Origin: Synechococcaceae cyanobacterium
GTDB taxonomy: Bacteria; Cyanobacteriota; Cyanobacteriia; PCC-6307; Cyanobiaceae
Assembly: GCA_947378425.1 (NCBI GenBank)
Contig: CANCJV010000039.1
Location: 1 to 37,296, forward strand
Length of the DNA stretch: 37,296 nt
Reading direction: 5' to 3'
Shown: positions 1,503-7,561 of the stretch, one piece after another
Layout: each line of letters starts with the position of its first letter
Numbering within the stretch: the first letter of the stretch is position 1
Made by a program: the position numbers and the translations under genes
The notes under the pieces: model-generated
Seen by the model: only the letters and a program-made list of their open reading frames with translations
What the model was told of the DNA's origin: nothing
Databases searched by the model: none

Positions 1503-1979
1503 ATGAGCTTCGATGCCCGCAGCCGCGAACGCCTGGAAGCCCTGGGGCGCCAGTTGCCCAAGCCCCTGCCCCTGCCTGAACCCGCCAGGTCCCAGTCCCG
1601 GCCCGATGCCCCGCGCCATGCGGTGGAGACTGAACAGGATCCTGAGCAGCTGTTCCGGGAGCTGATGGCCGCCAGCGCCGATGGTCGGGTGCCGCCCCAC
1701 CTGATGGACCGCCTGCGGGAGTTGGAGGAGGCCCGCCGTCGCCAGCGCCAGGACCGTGGGCAGCCCGGCGGCAGCGCCGCTGGTTCAGCCCGCGGCGCTG
1801 CGGCGGTGCCTGCCAGCGGCGCCACCAATCGCCCCAACCGGGGCAGGGGCCCTGGCAGCAGCTCACCGGACAATGCTCGCCCCGGCTCCAAGCGGCCGCG
1901 CGACGCCGAGGAGGAAGCGCTCTACACCGCCTTTCAGCAGCTGTTGCTGGAGGACGAGGAGGAGGAGGAGGCGCTCTGA
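1503..1979 (+). CDS. acidic, low-complexity protein of unknown function
   Basis: 158 residues starting behind a good GGAGGAG ribosome site, 24 bases after the pentapeptide gene, so the two are probably co-transcribed. Visible parts are an N-terminal helix (MSFDARSRERLEALG), a helical stretch with PPHLMDRLRELEEARRRQR at about 64-81, a Gly/Ser/Arg/Pro-rich disordered linker (about 84-135), and a C-terminal helix ending in a run of acidic residues (LLEDEEEEEAL). No known domain is recognised. The split between a basic linker and an acidic tail suggests a nucleic-acid- or protein-binding adaptor, but this is inference only. Confidence 0.7.
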   Translation: MSFDARSRERLEALGRQLPKPLPLPEPARSQSRPDAPRHAVETEQDPEQLFRELMAASADGRVPPHLMDRLRELEEARRRQRQDRGQPGGSAAGSARGAAAVPASGATNRPNRGRGPGSSSPDNARPGSKRPRDAEEEALYTAFQQLLLEDEEEEEAL

Positions 1980-2151: not shown

Positions 2152-3072
2152 TCAAGCCCCCTCGGGTGGTTCCAGCTGGATCGTGCTGTGGGCGATGCCG
2201 AGCTCGGCCAGCTTCTGTTTGGCTTCGTGCAGCAGTGCCATGTCATCGATGCTGCCGGGGCGGCGCTTGAGATGGGCTGTCATGGCGTTCTGGGATGTGC
2301 TCATGCCCCACACATGCAGATGGTGCACATCCAGCACCCCCTGCAGGTTGCGCAACATGCCATCCACCTCCACCAGATCGATGCCATCAGGCACGGCATC
2401 GAGAGCAATCACCAGGGCTTCGCGCAGCAATTGCCAGCCACTCCAGGCCACCGCCAGCCCCACACCGATGGCGGTGACGGCATCGAGCCAGTTCCAGCCG
2501 GTGAGGTGCACCAGCAGGGCGCTGACCAGCACCGCGGCGGACACGGCCGCATCGGTGAGCAGATGCACCACGGCGGCGCGGCGATTGAGATCGTGGCTGT
2601 GGTCGCTGCCGAACAGGCGGGCCGAGCCGAGATTGACGGCGATCCCCACCGCCGCCGCCGCCGCCACCGGCACGCCGACGACGGCCACAGGTTCCAGCAG
2701 CCGTTGCAGACCCTCGACGATCACCACGGCTGAAGCCATCAGGATCAGCACCGCATTGATCAGCGAAGCCAGCTGGGTGCTGCGGCCGTAGCCGTAGGTG
2801 AAGCGGGCGGTGGGCGGGCGGGCACTGAGCCGTTCAGCCCCCCAGCCGAACAGCAGACCGGCGACATCGCCGAGGTTGTGCACCGCATCGCCGATCAGGG
2901 CCAGCGAGCCGAAGGCCAGGCCAATGGCCAGCTGCAGCCCCGAGAGGGAACTGTTGAGGATGATGCTCCAGCGGAAGGCCGCCGCCGAGCCGGGCCGATG
3001 CTGATGCTGGCGCGGATGGGGCTGGCGCTGGATCTGCACCGCCGGATGGGCGTGCTCGTGTCGGGTACCCAT
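2152..3072 (-). CDS. cation diffusion facilitator, zinc-type efflux protein
   Basis: 306 residues, typical CDF length. A His-rich cytoplasmic N-terminus (nine His within about 25 residues) precedes six predicted membrane segments and a C-terminal cytoplasmic domain. The transport site has H65-x3-D69 in segment 2 (VHNLGD) and H170-x3-D174 in segment 5 (VHLLTD). The His/Asp pairing is the one associated with Zn2+ (also Co2+/Cd2+) in the CzcD/ZitB branch; Mn2+ members carry Asp pairs. A second His-rich loop (DHSHD) lies before segment 5. It likely exports zinc in exchange for protons. It starts 9 bases after the UPF0016 gene on the same strand, so the two are probably one transcript. Confidence 0.92.
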   Translation of the reverse strand: MGTRHEHAHPAVQIQRQPHPRQHQHRPGSAAAFRWSIILNSSLSGLQLAIGLAFGSLALIGDAVHNLGDVAGLLFGWGAERLSARPPTARFTYGYGRSTQLASLINAVLILMASAVVIVEGLQRLLEPVAVVGVPVAAAAAVGIAVNLGSARLFGSDHSHDLNRRAAVVHLLTDAAVSAAVLVSALLVHLTGWNWLDAVTAIGVGLAVAWSGWQLLREALVIALDAVPDGIDLVEVDGMLRNLQGVLDVHHLHVWGMSTSQNAMTAHLKRRPGSIDDMALLHEAKQKLAELGIAHSTIQLEPPEGA

Positions 3073-3081
3073 GGGGAGTGA

Positions 3082-3720
3082 TCAGGTGAGGGCCTGGCGC
3101 AGGGCGACAAGACCGAAGAAGAGGAACAGGCCGCCACTGAGGCGATAGAGCAGACGCTCGCTGATGCGGCCGCCGATCCAACGGCCGGCGCCGACTGCCA
3201 GCCAGGTGACCAGGGCGTGGCCGCTGAGGGTGCCGGCCAGCAGGGCGCCGAAGCCGAAGCCCGGCGCCGTGGCCAGGAAGATCGTGGTGAACTGGGTGCG
3301 ATCACCCAGCTCGGCGATGAACACCAGGGCGAAGGCCTCCCAGATCACGGCCCAGGGCGTGGTGATCGCCTGGTGCTTCTCCGCCTCATTCACCGCCGAC
3401 TCAGCGTCCTGGGCCTCGTCCTCGGCGGCGGCGCTGCCCATGGCCTGGGCGTCGATCAACAACTTGAGACCAAAGGCCAGGAACAGCACCGCCGCCAGCC
3501 AGGGCACCAGGGCGGCGGGCAGCAGTTGCCGCAGGCCGTACCCCAGGGCCAGGGAGATCAAGGTGACGGCAGCCAGGGCGGCGAAGGCACCGATGAACAC
3601 CCAGCGGGCCCGATGGCGGGCCGCCAGGATCAACGCCATGAAAAAAGTCTTGTCGCCCAGCTCCGCCAGGGTGATGGCGCTGAAGCTGGAGCCAAAGGCC
3701 GCCAGAGAGGATTGGGCCAC
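3082..3720 (-). CDS. GDT1/UPF0016 family divalent-cation transporter (likely Mn2+)
   Basis: 212 residues with two homologous halves, each carrying the family signature: E20-LGDKT in the first half and E137-LGDRT in the second. These acidic pairs form the cation site. About six membrane segments flank a charged cytoplasmic loop rich in Asp/Glu (about 98-118). In cyanobacteria and chloroplasts members of this family move Mn2+ (Mnx/PAM71 type), protecting against excess Mn and supplying photosystem II; others act on Ca2+. The start is GTG (3718-3720). It is the first gene of a metal pair with the CDF gene and is divergent from umuD. The Mn assignment rests on family knowledge, not on a residue that separates Mn from Ca. 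Confidence 0.88.
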   Translation of the reverse strand: MAQSSLAAFGSSFSAITLAELGDKTFFMALILAARHRARWVFIGAFAALAAVTLISLALGYGLRQLLPAALVPWLAAVLFLAFGLKLLIDAQAMGSAAAEDEAQDAESAVNEAEKHQAITTPWAVIWEAFALVFIAELGDRTQFTTIFLATAPGFGFGALLAGTLSGHALVTWLAVGAGRWIGGRISERLLYRLSGGLFLFFGLVALRQALT

Positions 3721-3783: not shown

Positions 3784-3797
3784 AGTACAGATGAACT
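3784..3797. promoter_or_regulatory. putative LexA (SOS) box upstream of umuDC
   Basis: AGTACAGATGAACT differs by a single base from the palindrome AGTAC-N4-GTACT, which fits the RGTAC-N4-GTWC type of LexA site known in cyanobacteria. It lies 27 bases before the umuD start, where a repressor would cover the promoter. Together with the identity of the two genes downstream this makes SOS control likely. The UPF0016 gene reads the other way from 3720 and could also be affected. Confidence 0.6.
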
Positions 3798-3824
3798 AGC
3801 CTGGCGGGCTCTGGCTGCCGTGAC

Positions 3825-4280
3825 GTGTCCTGTCGTGCCCTGCCGTGGTTGCCTCTCTCCCTGGCCGATCTGCCCGGCCAGCCGGGACTTGACCTGGCCC
3901 GGCTGCTGATTCGCGATCCCGCCCAGACCGTGTTGCTGCGGGTGGCCGGCGATTCCATGCAGGGCGCCGGCATCCAGCACGGCGATCTGCTGGTGGTGGA
4001 CCGCGCCCGCGAGGCCCGGGCCGGATCGATCGTGGTGGCGCGCTTCGGCGGCCGGTTCACGCTCAAGCGCCTCTGCATGGGCCAGGGCCGCCAGTGGCTG
4101 GAGGCCGCCCATCCCGCCTATCCGCCGATCCCCCTGGAGCCGCCGACAGAGCTCGGCGATCCCAGCAGCGCTCCCTGGGCCGGCGGCTGCGAGGTGCAGA
4201 TCTGGGGCGTGGCCGTGCATGTGATCCACCCGCTCTCAATCACCCGCTCTGTTCCAGCAGTTCTGAATCGCCGCCCCTGA
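3825..4280 (+). CDS. umuD: UmuD-like S24 peptidase, lacking the cleavable N-terminal arm
   Basis: 151 residues from a GTG start. The S24/LexA peptidase core is complete: the nucleophile Ser in RVAGDSMQGAGI and the general-base Lys in RFTLKRL, followed by the VWGVAVHVI-type strand (here IWGVAVHVI). In E. coli UmuD, RecA-triggered self-cleavage at Cys24-Gly25 yields active UmuD'. Here the sequence aligning with the start of UmuD' (LPLSLADL) is only nine residues from the start, and no Cys/Ala-Gly site precedes it. An in-frame TGA at 3792-3794 excludes a longer form. The gene thus appears to encode a ready-made UmuD'. A TTG at 3849 would be an even shorter start. It forms an operon with umuC 6 bases downstream. 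Confidence 0.85.
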   Translation: MSCRALPWLPLSLADLPGQPGLDLARLLIRDPAQTVLLRVAGDSMQGAGIQHGDLLVVDRAREARAGSIVVARFGGRFTLKRLCMGQGRQWLEAAHPAYPPIPLEPPTELGDPSSAPWAGGCEVQIWGVAVHVIHPLSITRSVPAVLNRRP

Positions 4281-4286
4281 ACACCC

Positions 4287-5579
4287 ATGGCCCGCGCCAC
4301 CGTGCTGATCGACGGCAACAACTTCTATGCCTCCTGCGAGGCGGTGCTCGATCCCGCGGTGATCGGCCGGCCGCTGGTGGTTCTCTCCAACAACGATGGC
4401 TGCATCGTCTCGCGCAGCGCCGAGGCGCGAGCCCTGGGCATCCCCATGGGCAGCCCCTACTTCAAGCTGCGCCCGCAGCTGCAACGCCATGGCGTGATCG
4501 TGCGCAGCTCCAATTACGGCCTCTACGCCGACATGAGCCAGCGGCTGATGGCCACCCTGGAGGGCTGGGTGGAGGAGCTGGAGATCTATTCAATCGATGA
4601 GGCCTTCGGTCTGCTGCACCGGCCGGCCGGGCGCAATGGCCAGCCGGGCGATCTGCGCACCTGGGGAGAGCAGCTGCGCGAGCGGGTGCGCCGGGATCTG
4701 GGCCTGCCGGTGGCCGTGGGCATCGCCCCCACCAAGGTGCTGGCCAAGCTGGCCAATCGCATCGCCAAGCGCGATCCGCTCCAGGGCGGTGTGTTCGACC
4801 TCGGCGCCAGCGACGACCCGAGTCCCTGGCTCGAAGCGATCGCCGTGGAGGATGTCTGGGGCATCGGCCGCCAGCTCTCGCGCTGGTGCCGGCTGCGCGG
4901 CATCGCCAATGCCCGCGCCCTGCGCGACATGCCACCGGAAGAACTGCGCCGCCGCTGCGGCGTGGTGGGGCTGCGGCTGCAACAGGAGCTCAGGGGCCAC
5001 GCCTGCCTGCCCTTGCAGAGCCTGCCGCCAGCGAAGCAGGAAACCTGCGTCAGCCGCAGCTTCAGCCGGCCGGTCAGCAGCCGCGAGGAGCTGCGCCAGG
5101 CCGTGGCCACCTACCTGAGCCGGGCGGCCGAGAAGCTGCGGCGCCAACGGCAGCGGGCCGGGGCGATCACGGTGTTCGTGCGCAGCAGCCCCTTCGATGG
5201 CAGCAGCTTTTACAGCAATGCCGCCACGGTGGCGCTGGCGCTGCCCAGCCATGACACCGGCGTGCTGCTGGCCGCCGCCCTGCCCCTGGCGGACAGCCTC
5301 TATCGCCATCACAAACCACTGCAGAAGGCGGGGGTGCTGCTGCAGCAACTGCAGCCCGAAGAGCTGTTGCAACACCACCTGCTGGTGCCGCTGGAGCCCC
5401 AGCAGCAACGGCGCCGGGAGGCTCTGATGGCGGCCGTGGATGGGCTCAACCGCCGCTATGGAAGCGGCACGGTGCAGTGGGCCGCCTGCGGCCTGCAGCC
5501 TGTCTGGGCGATGCGCCGCTCCAGGCTGTCACGGGCGGCCACCACCCGGATCAGCGATGTGCCGGTGGTGTGGGCCTAG
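4287..5579 (+). CDS. umuC: DNA polymerase V catalytic subunit UmuC (Y family)
   Basis: 430 residues, close to the 422 of E. coli UmuC. The palm has catalytic D9 (VLIDGNNFYASCE) and D104-E105 (YSIDEAF). The SRSAEAR and RSSNYGLYADMS fingers motifs are present, as are a helix-hairpin-helix thumb (VEDVWGIGRQLSRW) and a little-finger domain ending in TTRISDVPVVW. The protein carries out error-prone synthesis past lesions with UmuD'2. The clamp-binding motif of E. coli UmuC (QLNLF) aligns with QHHLL here, so contact with the beta clamp may be weak or altered. It follows umuD by 6 bases and shares its SOS-type control. Confidence 0.95.
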   Translation: MARATVLIDGNNFYASCEAVLDPAVIGRPLVVLSNNDGCIVSRSAEARALGIPMGSPYFKLRPQLQRHGVIVRSSNYGLYADMSQRLMATLEGWVEELEIYSIDEAFGLLHRPAGRNGQPGDLRTWGEQLRERVRRDLGLPVAVGIAPTKVLAKLANRIAKRDPLQGGVFDLGASDDPSPWLEAIAVEDVWGIGRQLSRWCRLRGIANARALRDMPPEELRRRCGVVGLRLQQELRGHACLPLQSLPPAKQETCVSRSFSRPVSSREELRQAVATYLSRAAEKLRRQRQRAGAITVFVRSSPFDGSSFYSNAATVALALPSHDTGVLLAAALPLADSLYRHHKPLQKAGVLLQQLQPEELLQHHLLVPLEPQQQRRREALMAAVDGLNRRYGSGTVQWAACGLQPVWAMRRSRLSRAATTRISDVPVVWA

Positions 5580-6688: not shown

Positions 6689-7561
6689 ATGATCGTGCTG
6701 AATCCCTTGAAGCGCTTCCATAAGCCCCTGACCCTCCTCGGGGTCACCGGCCTGACGGCCATGGCGAGTGTGGCGATGGGCGTGGCGCAGCCGGCGCAGG
6801 CGGCAATTTCCTGCCCAGCACTTGCGGTAACGGGTCTGCCAGGGGGGCCTGTCAGCAACGGAGTCCCTTGCGGGACAGTTGACAGCACAACCGGTGCCCA
6901 GCAATTCACCGTGGACTACACGGCAGCCATTGCCAATCCAGCAAATTCAGCGGACTTCAATACAGCTAATTATTTCTCGCTCCAAGCGGCAAGTATCCAG
7001 ACAGGTGTTAGCTCAACCATTGGATTCTCCAATGTTCGTTTCCTTGTCAGTGGCTTCATAGGTGCCCAGCAGTTTACGGACCAAAGCATTGCTGTTTGGC
7101 AGGACCTCGCAACGGTTCAGGCGGATCCAACCAGCCAAGGATACAGTGGATATTCGGTCGCAGAACCTGTCACAAATTCCTTCGGAACCGACTACAAAAC
7201 CGCGAGCTTCTTTCTTACTCCTGGTAGCGCCAATGGCATCACTGGTCTGACAGCTGGCGTCATCAATACCAAGGCATTTCAGCCCAGCGCTTTCGGCATC
7301 ACTGCAATTAGCAGCCTCAAGATCACCGGTACGATTACGGGTGGATCAATAAATGGTGGGGCTGCGGCCTTCGGTCTCGCCAACTTCCAGGGTTATAACA
7401 ACCTGGATCCATTTGCTGGTGGAGCTCCATCCGGCATCTTCGGTCGGGCTATTCTGGTTGACCAAGTCCCCGCCCCCCTGCCCCTCTTCGGTGCCGGCGC
7501 CGCCTTCGGCTGGAGCCGCAAACTGCGTCGCCGCATCGGCGCCACCAAGGCCGCAGTCTGA
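6689..7561 (+). CDS. secreted protein with PEP-CTERM-like sorting tail
   Basis: 290 residues. A signal peptide is clear: basic start (LKRFHKPLTLLG), hydrophobic core and an AQPAQA-A cleavage site at about residue 35. The mature part is rich in Ser, Thr, Gly, Asn and Ala and looks like a beta-rich surface protein. The C-terminus reads VPAPLPLFGAGAAFGWSRKL followed by Arg residues: a Pro-containing motif, a short hydrophobic helix and a basic end. This is the three-part plan of PEP-CTERM signals processed by exosortases, in the PxPLPLxGAGAAFGxSRKLRRR variant common in cyanobacteria. The codon use and lower GC of the central part differ from neighbouring genes, as often seen for surface proteins. 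Its function is unknown. An intrinsic terminator follows at 7585. Confidence 0.75.
   Translation: MIVLNPLKRFHKPLTLLGVTGLTAMASVAMGVAQPAQAAISCPALAVTGLPGGPVSNGVPCGTVDSTTGAQQFTVDYTAAIANPANSADFNTANYFSLQAASIQTGVSSTIGFSNVRFLVSGFIGAQQFTDQSIAVWQDLATVQADPTSQGYSGYSVAEPVTNSFGTDYKTASFFLTPGSANGITGLTAGVINTKAFQPSAFGITAISSLKITGTITGGSINGGAAAFGLANFQGYNNLDPFAGGAPSGIFGRAILVDQVPAPLPLFGAGAAFGWSRKLRRRIGATKAAV

Follow-up and report, generated by a model that had tools for sequence, protein, structure and literature searches.

A natural pair of complementary UmuD proteins in Cyanobiaceae that may divide the cleavage switch of DNA polymerase V

The umuDC operon of the window and the second UmuD of its genome

We analyzed a 37,296-nucleotide stretch of DNA from a Synechococcaceae cyanobacterium (family Cyanobiaceae; GenBank assembly GCA_947378425.1, contig CANCJV010000039.1), hereafter the window, which carries a umuDC operon for DNA polymerase V (pol V) whose UmuD lacks the N-terminal arm (Table 1). 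The two open reading frames are 6 bases apart, with umuD directly upstream of umuC, the layout of a pol V operon, and they are preceded by a LexA-box-like operator with one mismatch to the consensus used for all box scans, as quoted in PMC3091678. An earlier, sequence-only reading of this DNA had noticed the operon and its box, and both stand. The umuC gene is the sole UmuC match in its own genome, which rules out a second UmuC accompanying the solo UmuD described below.

The window UmuD has an S24 peptidase fold (Pfam Peptidase_S24, PF00717; E value, 2.4e-21), and its Ser44 and Lys81 align with Ser60 and Lys97 of Escherichia coli UmuD, confirming that the catalytic core is intact. The TGA inside the operator is in frame, 33 bases 5' of the GTG at 3825; it closes the frame, so that a longer form is impossible in that frame, as had been claimed. 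A scan for ATG, GTG, and TTG upstream of the domain left only this GTG and a TTG at 3852 as candidate starts. Thus, the window UmuD has neither arm nor cleavage site, and no site was found in the alignment. Even the FPSPADDYVE tail that UmuD' retains is unrecognizable; LPLSLADLPG stands there. The protein scores 94.6 bits with the UmuD autoproteolytic-subunit model (NCBIfam NF007621), under the curated cut-off of 110 bits. HumD of phage P1 is a UmuD' homologue encoded without a cleavable arm, and we know of no dead partner of HumD. HumD is a phage gene, however, and the window UmuD reaches only 34.1 bits with the HumD model (NF051876), whose cut-off is 120. All structure models used here are AlphaFold monomers; that of the window UmuD has a mean predicted local distance difference test (pLDDT) score of 82.5, with core blocks at 93-97, and its best PDB matches are the UmuD-RecA structure 8gmt and UmuD' (1ay9).

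The window's own genome (3.63 Mb in 84 contigs, 98.6% complete) yielded three S24 matches, namely, the window gene, LexA, and a solo UmuD on contig C75, ruling out a genome without full-length UmuD. This solo UmuD keeps the arm and the site, ESVAAG-FPSPADDYVE (the hyphen marks the scissile bond), but its GDAM and FILRRL correspond to GDSM and FTLKRL, or close variants, in the family's active UmuDs; that is, Ser60 is replaced by Ala and Lys97 by Arg. We call this type dead. It scores 121.9 bits with NF007621, above the curated cut-off, and has the cleavage site without the catalytic Ser and Lys. NCBIfam would therefore call the dead UmuD an "autoproteolytic subunit," while the active armless UmuD scores under the cut-off. 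A dead copy from Cyanobium sp. FGCU6 (locus L248) was modeled with a mean pLDDT of 82.2 (core blocks, 89-98), and its best PDB matches are E. coli UmuD' and UmuD.

From the missing site, the sequence-only reading had concluded that the cleavage-dependent delay would be absent and that LexA control alone would be left. This did not hold up: the second UmuD keeps the arm and site and has a LexA-type box of its own. Since the two UmuDs together hold every part of the cleavage switch, loss of cleavage control is not supported, and the switch, instead of having been lost, seems to be distributed over two genes.

Table 1. Coordinates of the features discussed (window positions unless a contig or locus is named)
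Feature	Location	Strand	Details and basis
LexA-box-like operator AGTACAGATGAACT	3784..3797	+	One mismatch to RGTACNNNDGTWCB
In-frame TGA closing the frame upstream of umuD, inside the operator	3792..3794	+	Read directly
umuD (armless, UmuD'-like)	3825..4280	+	151 residues counted from GTG 3825, a candidate start; open reading frame translation, Pfam, alignment
Catalytic Ser codon, residue 44 (E. coli Ser60)	3954..3956	+	Alignment
Catalytic Lys codon, residue 81 (E. coli Lys97)	4065..4067	+	Alignment
umuC, polymerase subunit of pol V; DUF4113 tail at the C terminus	4287..5579	+	430 residues; Pfam IMS, IMS_C, DUF4113
Dead, arm-bearing solo UmuD, outside the window	G000 contig C75:6224-6697	-	157 residues; loci L002/L100 (LexA of the same genome, L003)
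Pro/Arg UmuD of genus g81	L474/L502, L483, L486, L488, L490, L492, L494		

Two complementary UmuD types: co-occurrence, common descent, boxes, and constraint

We searched all 42 genomes of the genus and read their loci. An armless UmuD and a dead solo UmuD are both present in 34 of them, counting G227, whose armless gene ends at a contig edge before the Lys codon. Six genomes have only the dead UmuD (G206, G217, G223, G228, G229, and G230) and two have neither (G214 and G231, 78% and 84% complete); none of the 42 has an armless UmuD alone or a complete single UmuD. An operonic umuD is present in 34 genomes of the genus (whole in 33, cut by a contig end in one), and every one of these operonic genes lacks the conserved site [A/S/C]G-FPS; the resemblance to an already cleaved UmuD' is general in the genus. 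Of the 40 genus loci of the dead gene, we compared the surroundings of 10, and all 10 have the same neighboring genes. Two genomes, G090 and G062, are single contigs, and their coordinates place the dead gene 0.36 and 2.97 Mb from umuC. These constant neighbors and single-contig placements indicate that the pair is not an assembly artifact.

Family loci were chosen by hand from samples of 201 and 251 family genomes. The same pair occurs in four more genera, g30 (3 genomes), g45 (8), g47 (6), and g59 (1); in g47 the two are close together, one strand carrying the dead umuD and, about 0.5-1.8 kb farther downstream, the armless umuD-umuC. A single complete UmuD is found instead of the pair in some g30 (G030 and G242) and g45 (G244) genomes. 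We classified 152 family copies, defining arm-bearing by the motif [A/S/C]GFPS, on which the Gly counts and the range of P1 residues are conditional, and leaving out BLAST scores below 50 bits. The set comprises 63 arm-bearing Ala/Arg copies (in 62 genomes), 51 whole armless Ser/Lys copies, 33 complete single copies, 3 degenerate copies, and 2 partial ones; second weak matches in G108 and G247 stayed outside it, as did a partial copy in G069 (L211) whose catalytic Ser is off the contig. Arm-bearing copies are either Ser/Lys (33) or Ala/Arg (63), with no case among them of one substitution without the other; the copies lacking the site are the 51 Ser/Lys, the 3 degenerate, and the 2 partial ones. 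A dead copy is present in each of the 51 genomes that have a whole armless one. Conversely, a dead copy occurs in 62 genomes: 52 have an armless partner (one of them partial), a whole-genome PF00717 search found none in 6, and in the remaining 4 (G126, G236, G252, and G267) the operonic UmuD lies outside the classification.

The two types also differ in their place. umuC lies directly behind 50 of the 51 armless copies, 29 of the 33 complete ones, and none of the 63 dead ones. In G216, the 51st armless case, the umuD frame runs on into umuC, perhaps through a frameshift near its end; of the four complete copies without an adjoining umuC, three have no same-strand umuC in the available DNA and one has it 713 bases on. 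Over the five genera, the frame of the armless gene closes fewer than 37 codons before the domain in 30 of 51 cases; the other 21 have a longer frame, yet no site. Judged by these sequences, the split UmuD pair is natural in this cyanobacterial group and general in the genus.

Both genes lie behind predicted LexA boxes. Allowing at most one mismatch to the consensus within 320 bases upstream of the domain, we found a box at all 32 armless genus genes that could be tested, from a total of 33, and at 39 of 40 dead genes. Among random windows, the count was 132 of 1,500. The remaining four genera gave a box for 20 of 23 dead genes and 15 of 18 armless ones. Among genomes without an armless gene, a box lies upstream of umuC in 8 of 8, with 250 bases scanned, a length for which the background was not computed. 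We infer that both UmuD genes would be induced by LexA release, with LexA binding at the predicted boxes. In the two genus clades without an armless umuD (L085, L145, L146, L147, and L148; L141, L142, and L143), a LexA-type box immediately precedes umuC. The genus also has a third UmuD-like paralogue (L121, L130, and L131, in G206, G148, and G198), in which site and catalytic pair are both gone; it likewise has a LexA-type box, with at most one mismatch, in its three genomes, and the viral contig L400 carries a similar copy.

A tree of the S24 domain only (106 columns) was inferred from 108 sequences, after 2 partial sequences were dropped and 43 of the remaining 151 were removed for being >96% identical to a retained sequence. 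All armless copies group in one clade (Shimodaira-Hasegawa approximate likelihood ratio test, 98.8; ultrafast bootstrap, 99), and so do the dead copies together with the three degenerate ones (100/100). Both clades are nested among the single UmuDs of the family, with weak support for their placement there. We then compared 63 dead, 51 armless, and 33 single copies position by position. Residues 24-33, around the cut, hardly vary among dead and single copies and are missing from the armless copies. Conversely, Ser60 and Lys97 are present in 100% of armless and single copies and in 0% of dead ones, and Ala64, Thr95, Ala110, and Tyr114 are kept in 92-100% of armless copies and mostly changed in dead ones. 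Within residues 22-41 of the dead gene, the mean proportion of nonsynonymous differences (pN) is 0.03 and that of synonymous differences (pS) 0.334. Purifying selection, strongest at the arm and site, argues that the dead protein is not simply decaying. All 52 dead copies whose genome also encodes an armless partner have Ala at P1; Ser occupies this position in three dead copies of one clade (G206, G223, and G230) that lost the armless gene. A change of P1 in a partnerless clade would be in line with a role of the site in cutting by a partner, and it would represent at most a single event.

A cleavage switch that may be divided between two genes

On balance, we lean toward the reading that UmuD has been split into an armless operonic protease half and a dead solo substrate half, which would form a heterodimer and keep cleavage control through cleavage in trans. 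Gene duplication would have divided UmuD into two specialized subunits. The armless protein of the window, with the Ser/Lys pair and its surroundings and encoded alongside UmuC, would be the protease and docking half; the solo protein, with the arm, the Ala-Gly site, and FPSPADDYVE and without the ability to cut, would be the substrate and tail half. Once both were induced on LexA release, they would form a heterodimer, and on the RecA filament the armless subunit would cut its partner's arm in trans. The freed partner tail could then enter the UmuC cleft, with the armless subunit sitting on the UmuC tail. The heterodimer, the trans cleavage, and these pol V roles are inferred from the sequences and from E. 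coli; if they apply, cleavage control would be retained but would depend on both proteins.

Intermolecular cleavage by UmuD-like proteins was reportedly described in work in PNAS in 1998. In a RecA:single-stranded DNA-dependent assay reported in PMC5342242, UmuD 18, an E. coli UmuD that is truncated but retains its active site, cleaves in trans the arm of full-length, dead UmuD S60A. The cyanobacterial arrangement matches these two proteins, which suggests that the armless and dead UmuDs are a natural pair of this kind. UmuD 18 and UmuD S60A are laboratory constructs, whereas the cyanobacterial arrangement is natural and conserved across genera, with cleavage predicted. The places proposed for the two subunits follow a published pol V model in which one UmuD' sits on the UmuC tail and the N-terminal arm of the other lies in the UmuC cleft (PMC12926913). 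More tentatively, pol V here could be a heterodimer-based mutasome in which the two unequal UmuD' places have become fixed in two genes, a similar division having perhaps arisen independently at least twice in cyanobacteria.

The system shares with E. coli UmuD/UmuD'-UmuC the S24 fold, the Ser/Lys pair, the operon with umuC, and LexA-type control. The E. coli site is Cys-Gly followed by FPSPA; that of the cyanobacterial solo partner is Ala-Gly followed by FPSPA. In E. coli, one polypeptide is both protease and substrate, whereas in the cyanobacteria there are two genes, the operonic one without even the UmuD' tail. UmuDAb of Acinetobacter is another UmuD that has evolved to a different role; it is a repressor, whereas the dead cyanobacterial UmuD keeps the plain UmuD layout. 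A duplicated umuD is listed for Cyanobium gracile PCC 6307 in PMC5101192, whose available portion does not mention arm, site, or catalytic residues; this duplicate is probably the same armless and dead pair. We found no description of a split UmuD in the literature searched, in which coverage of subscription papers was limited.

If the split is real, activation would require proteins from two separate genes, one a protease that lacks a substrate and the other a substrate that lacks a protease. In E. coli, a single gene encodes both UmuD' subunits, so the question of cutting in cis or in trans and that of why the two subunits in pol V are unequal are difficult to tease apart. Here, nature has seemingly separated protease, substrate, and UmuC-binding tail, each of which can be deleted or swapped alone. 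A self-cleaving switch, which normally turns on error-prone DNA repair, would have become a two-protein switch, and this in isolates that include Synechococcus sp. CS-1332 and Cyanobium usitatum.

Several observations weigh against this reading. The median ratio of nonsynonymous to synonymous substitution rates (dN/dS; 253 genus pairs with dS of 0.1-0.8, not independent of one another) is higher for the armless domain (0.412) than for the dead gene (0.257), indicating weaker constraint on the supposed protease. Asn41 is conserved in just 41% of armless copies, and E. coli UmuD N41D is monomeric (PMC5342242). The armless genes of G224 and G226 have a degenerate AAG-LPL in a possible N-terminal extension, which looks like a last trace of the cleavage site. 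Finally, the two genus clades that lost the armless gene kept umuC, and the dead gene is present in 3 of 3 and 3 of 5 of their genomes; in these eight genomes, LexA is the only S24 protein with Ser and Lys found by the PF00717 search. The dead protein is kept without the armless gene and so is not strictly tied to the armless protein. In these partnerless clades, the dead protein may be useful alone or be cut by LexA, or the lineages may work without cleavage; where the dead gene alone is left (6 of the 42 genomes), cleavage control may have been lost by another route.

That persistence of the dead protein fits an alternative without any cleavage, which we consider unlikely. The armless protein would be a ready-made UmuD', making pol V active once induced, and the dead UmuD would be a checkpoint subunit or antimutator that sends UmuD' to ClpXP through heterodimers. 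E. coli offers precedents: UmuD-UmuD' heterodimers are preferred, and UmuD delivers UmuD' to ClpXP (PMC5342242); uncleavable UmuD(K97A) holds UmuC at the membrane (PMC4552617). Yet the scissile bond is kept in 63 of the 66 copies without the catalytic pair (60 Ala-Gly and 3 Ser-Gly), the three Ser-Gly copies belonging to a single partnerless clade and the three site-less ones being the degenerate third paralogue. The armless protein, moreover, retains its catalytic neighborhood, which would be superfluous if nothing were cut.

It is improbable that another S24 protease, LexA, cuts the dead UmuD in trans while the armless UmuD is merely a structural subunit of pol V. The six dead-only genomes would suit it, since the PF00717 search gave LexA with Ser/Lys and the dead protein, plus the degenerate copy in G206, and so would an Edwardsbacteria contig that places an Ala/Arg UmuD between an apparent LexA end and umuC. 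Cutting by LexA nevertheless leaves unexplained why all 51 whole, nondegenerate armless proteins beside umuC have Ser and Lys. Still more improbable is decay, with one or both copies being lost without a special function: the armless gene has indeed been lost in two clades, and three genus genomes carry a third, more degenerate copy, but the same two substitutions recur in 63 copies from five genera, the dead gene has a dN/dS of 0.26 with almost no amino-acid change at arm and site, and it keeps its neighbors in the genus loci compared. A sequencing error or frameshift masking a normal arm on the operonic UmuD, which the sequence-only reading had named as its refutation along with related strains carrying the arm, has a negligible chance, since the conserved site is missing from all 34 operonic genus copies, two single-contig genomes included, and we found no point in its favor.

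UmuD copies outside the family and other genes of the window

With a dead-UmuD profile, we fetched the best 80 of 517 loci from the genome collection. They hold 81 arm-bearing copies, of which 75 have both Ser and Lys. The other six are five Ala/Arg copies (four from this cyanobacterial group and one from Edwardsbacteria) and one Ser/Arg copy from Melainabacteria. The Edwardsbacteria copy, from a metagenome-assembled genome (MAG), is L315:46-690 (+), between the apparent LexA end and umuC; the Melainabacteria copy, also from a MAG, is L307:3986-4360 (+), upstream of umuC. Among the best 80 of 538 IMG/VR loci, with the E. coli guide sequence removed from the counts, there are 81 S24 matches: 78 of 79 arm-bearing copies keep Ser/Lys and one has Cys/Lys, and the remaining two are a site-less Ser/Lys copy resembling LexA (L345) and the copy resembling the third paralogue (L400). 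No split pair was found in these 80 loci, plasmid and phage record collections lying outside the search, and a viral origin of the dead UmuD was set aside.

In a class-wide sample of 291 genomes, the 30 automatically fetched loci (28 from the window's own family) are all Ser/Lys with an arm. Outside the family, we read 41 copies from 20 hand-picked genomes with multiple or odd copies, some further copies being left out; 38 of the 41 are Ser/Lys. The exceptions are a Pro/Arg copy in G443, a Leu/Lys copy in G451, and an Ala/Arg copy in G355 that adjoins umuC and whose site is degenerate too. In G308, a Ser/Lys UmuD with only a short arm (L444:1925-2248, +) adjoins umuC, another complete UmuD is present in the genome, and no dead partner was found among the copies read.

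The Pro/Arg type recurs in its genus, g81 of family f23, of which we read 11 genomes. Seven (G377, G438, G443, G455, G461, G472, and G501) carry a UmuD in which Ser is replaced by Pro and Lys by Arg and AG-FPSPAD is intact; umuC lies directly behind it in five of the seven, while in G377 the contig ends nearby and in G438 umuC does not follow. Each of these seven genomes has a Ser/Lys UmuD elsewhere that keeps its arm, and in the other four (G299, G420, G432, and G495) the copies seen are all Ser/Lys. Because the Ser replacement and the layout both differ from those in Cyanobiaceae, we take this as a second case, in which a dead UmuD apparently arose independently.

In the window, two genes on the reverse strand (2152-3072 and 3082-3720), which we take from their resemblance to be cation-diffusion transporter and GDT1/TMEM165-type exporter genes, separate umuD from a gene at 1503-1979 (+) whose product begins MSFDARSRERL. 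In several genomes of the genus, a relative of this last gene lies a short distance upstream of umuDC or umuC. Farther downstream, the gene at 6689-7561 (+) may encode a secreted protein, with a PEP-CTERM-like tail at its end (VPAPLPLFGAGAAFGWSRKLRRR).

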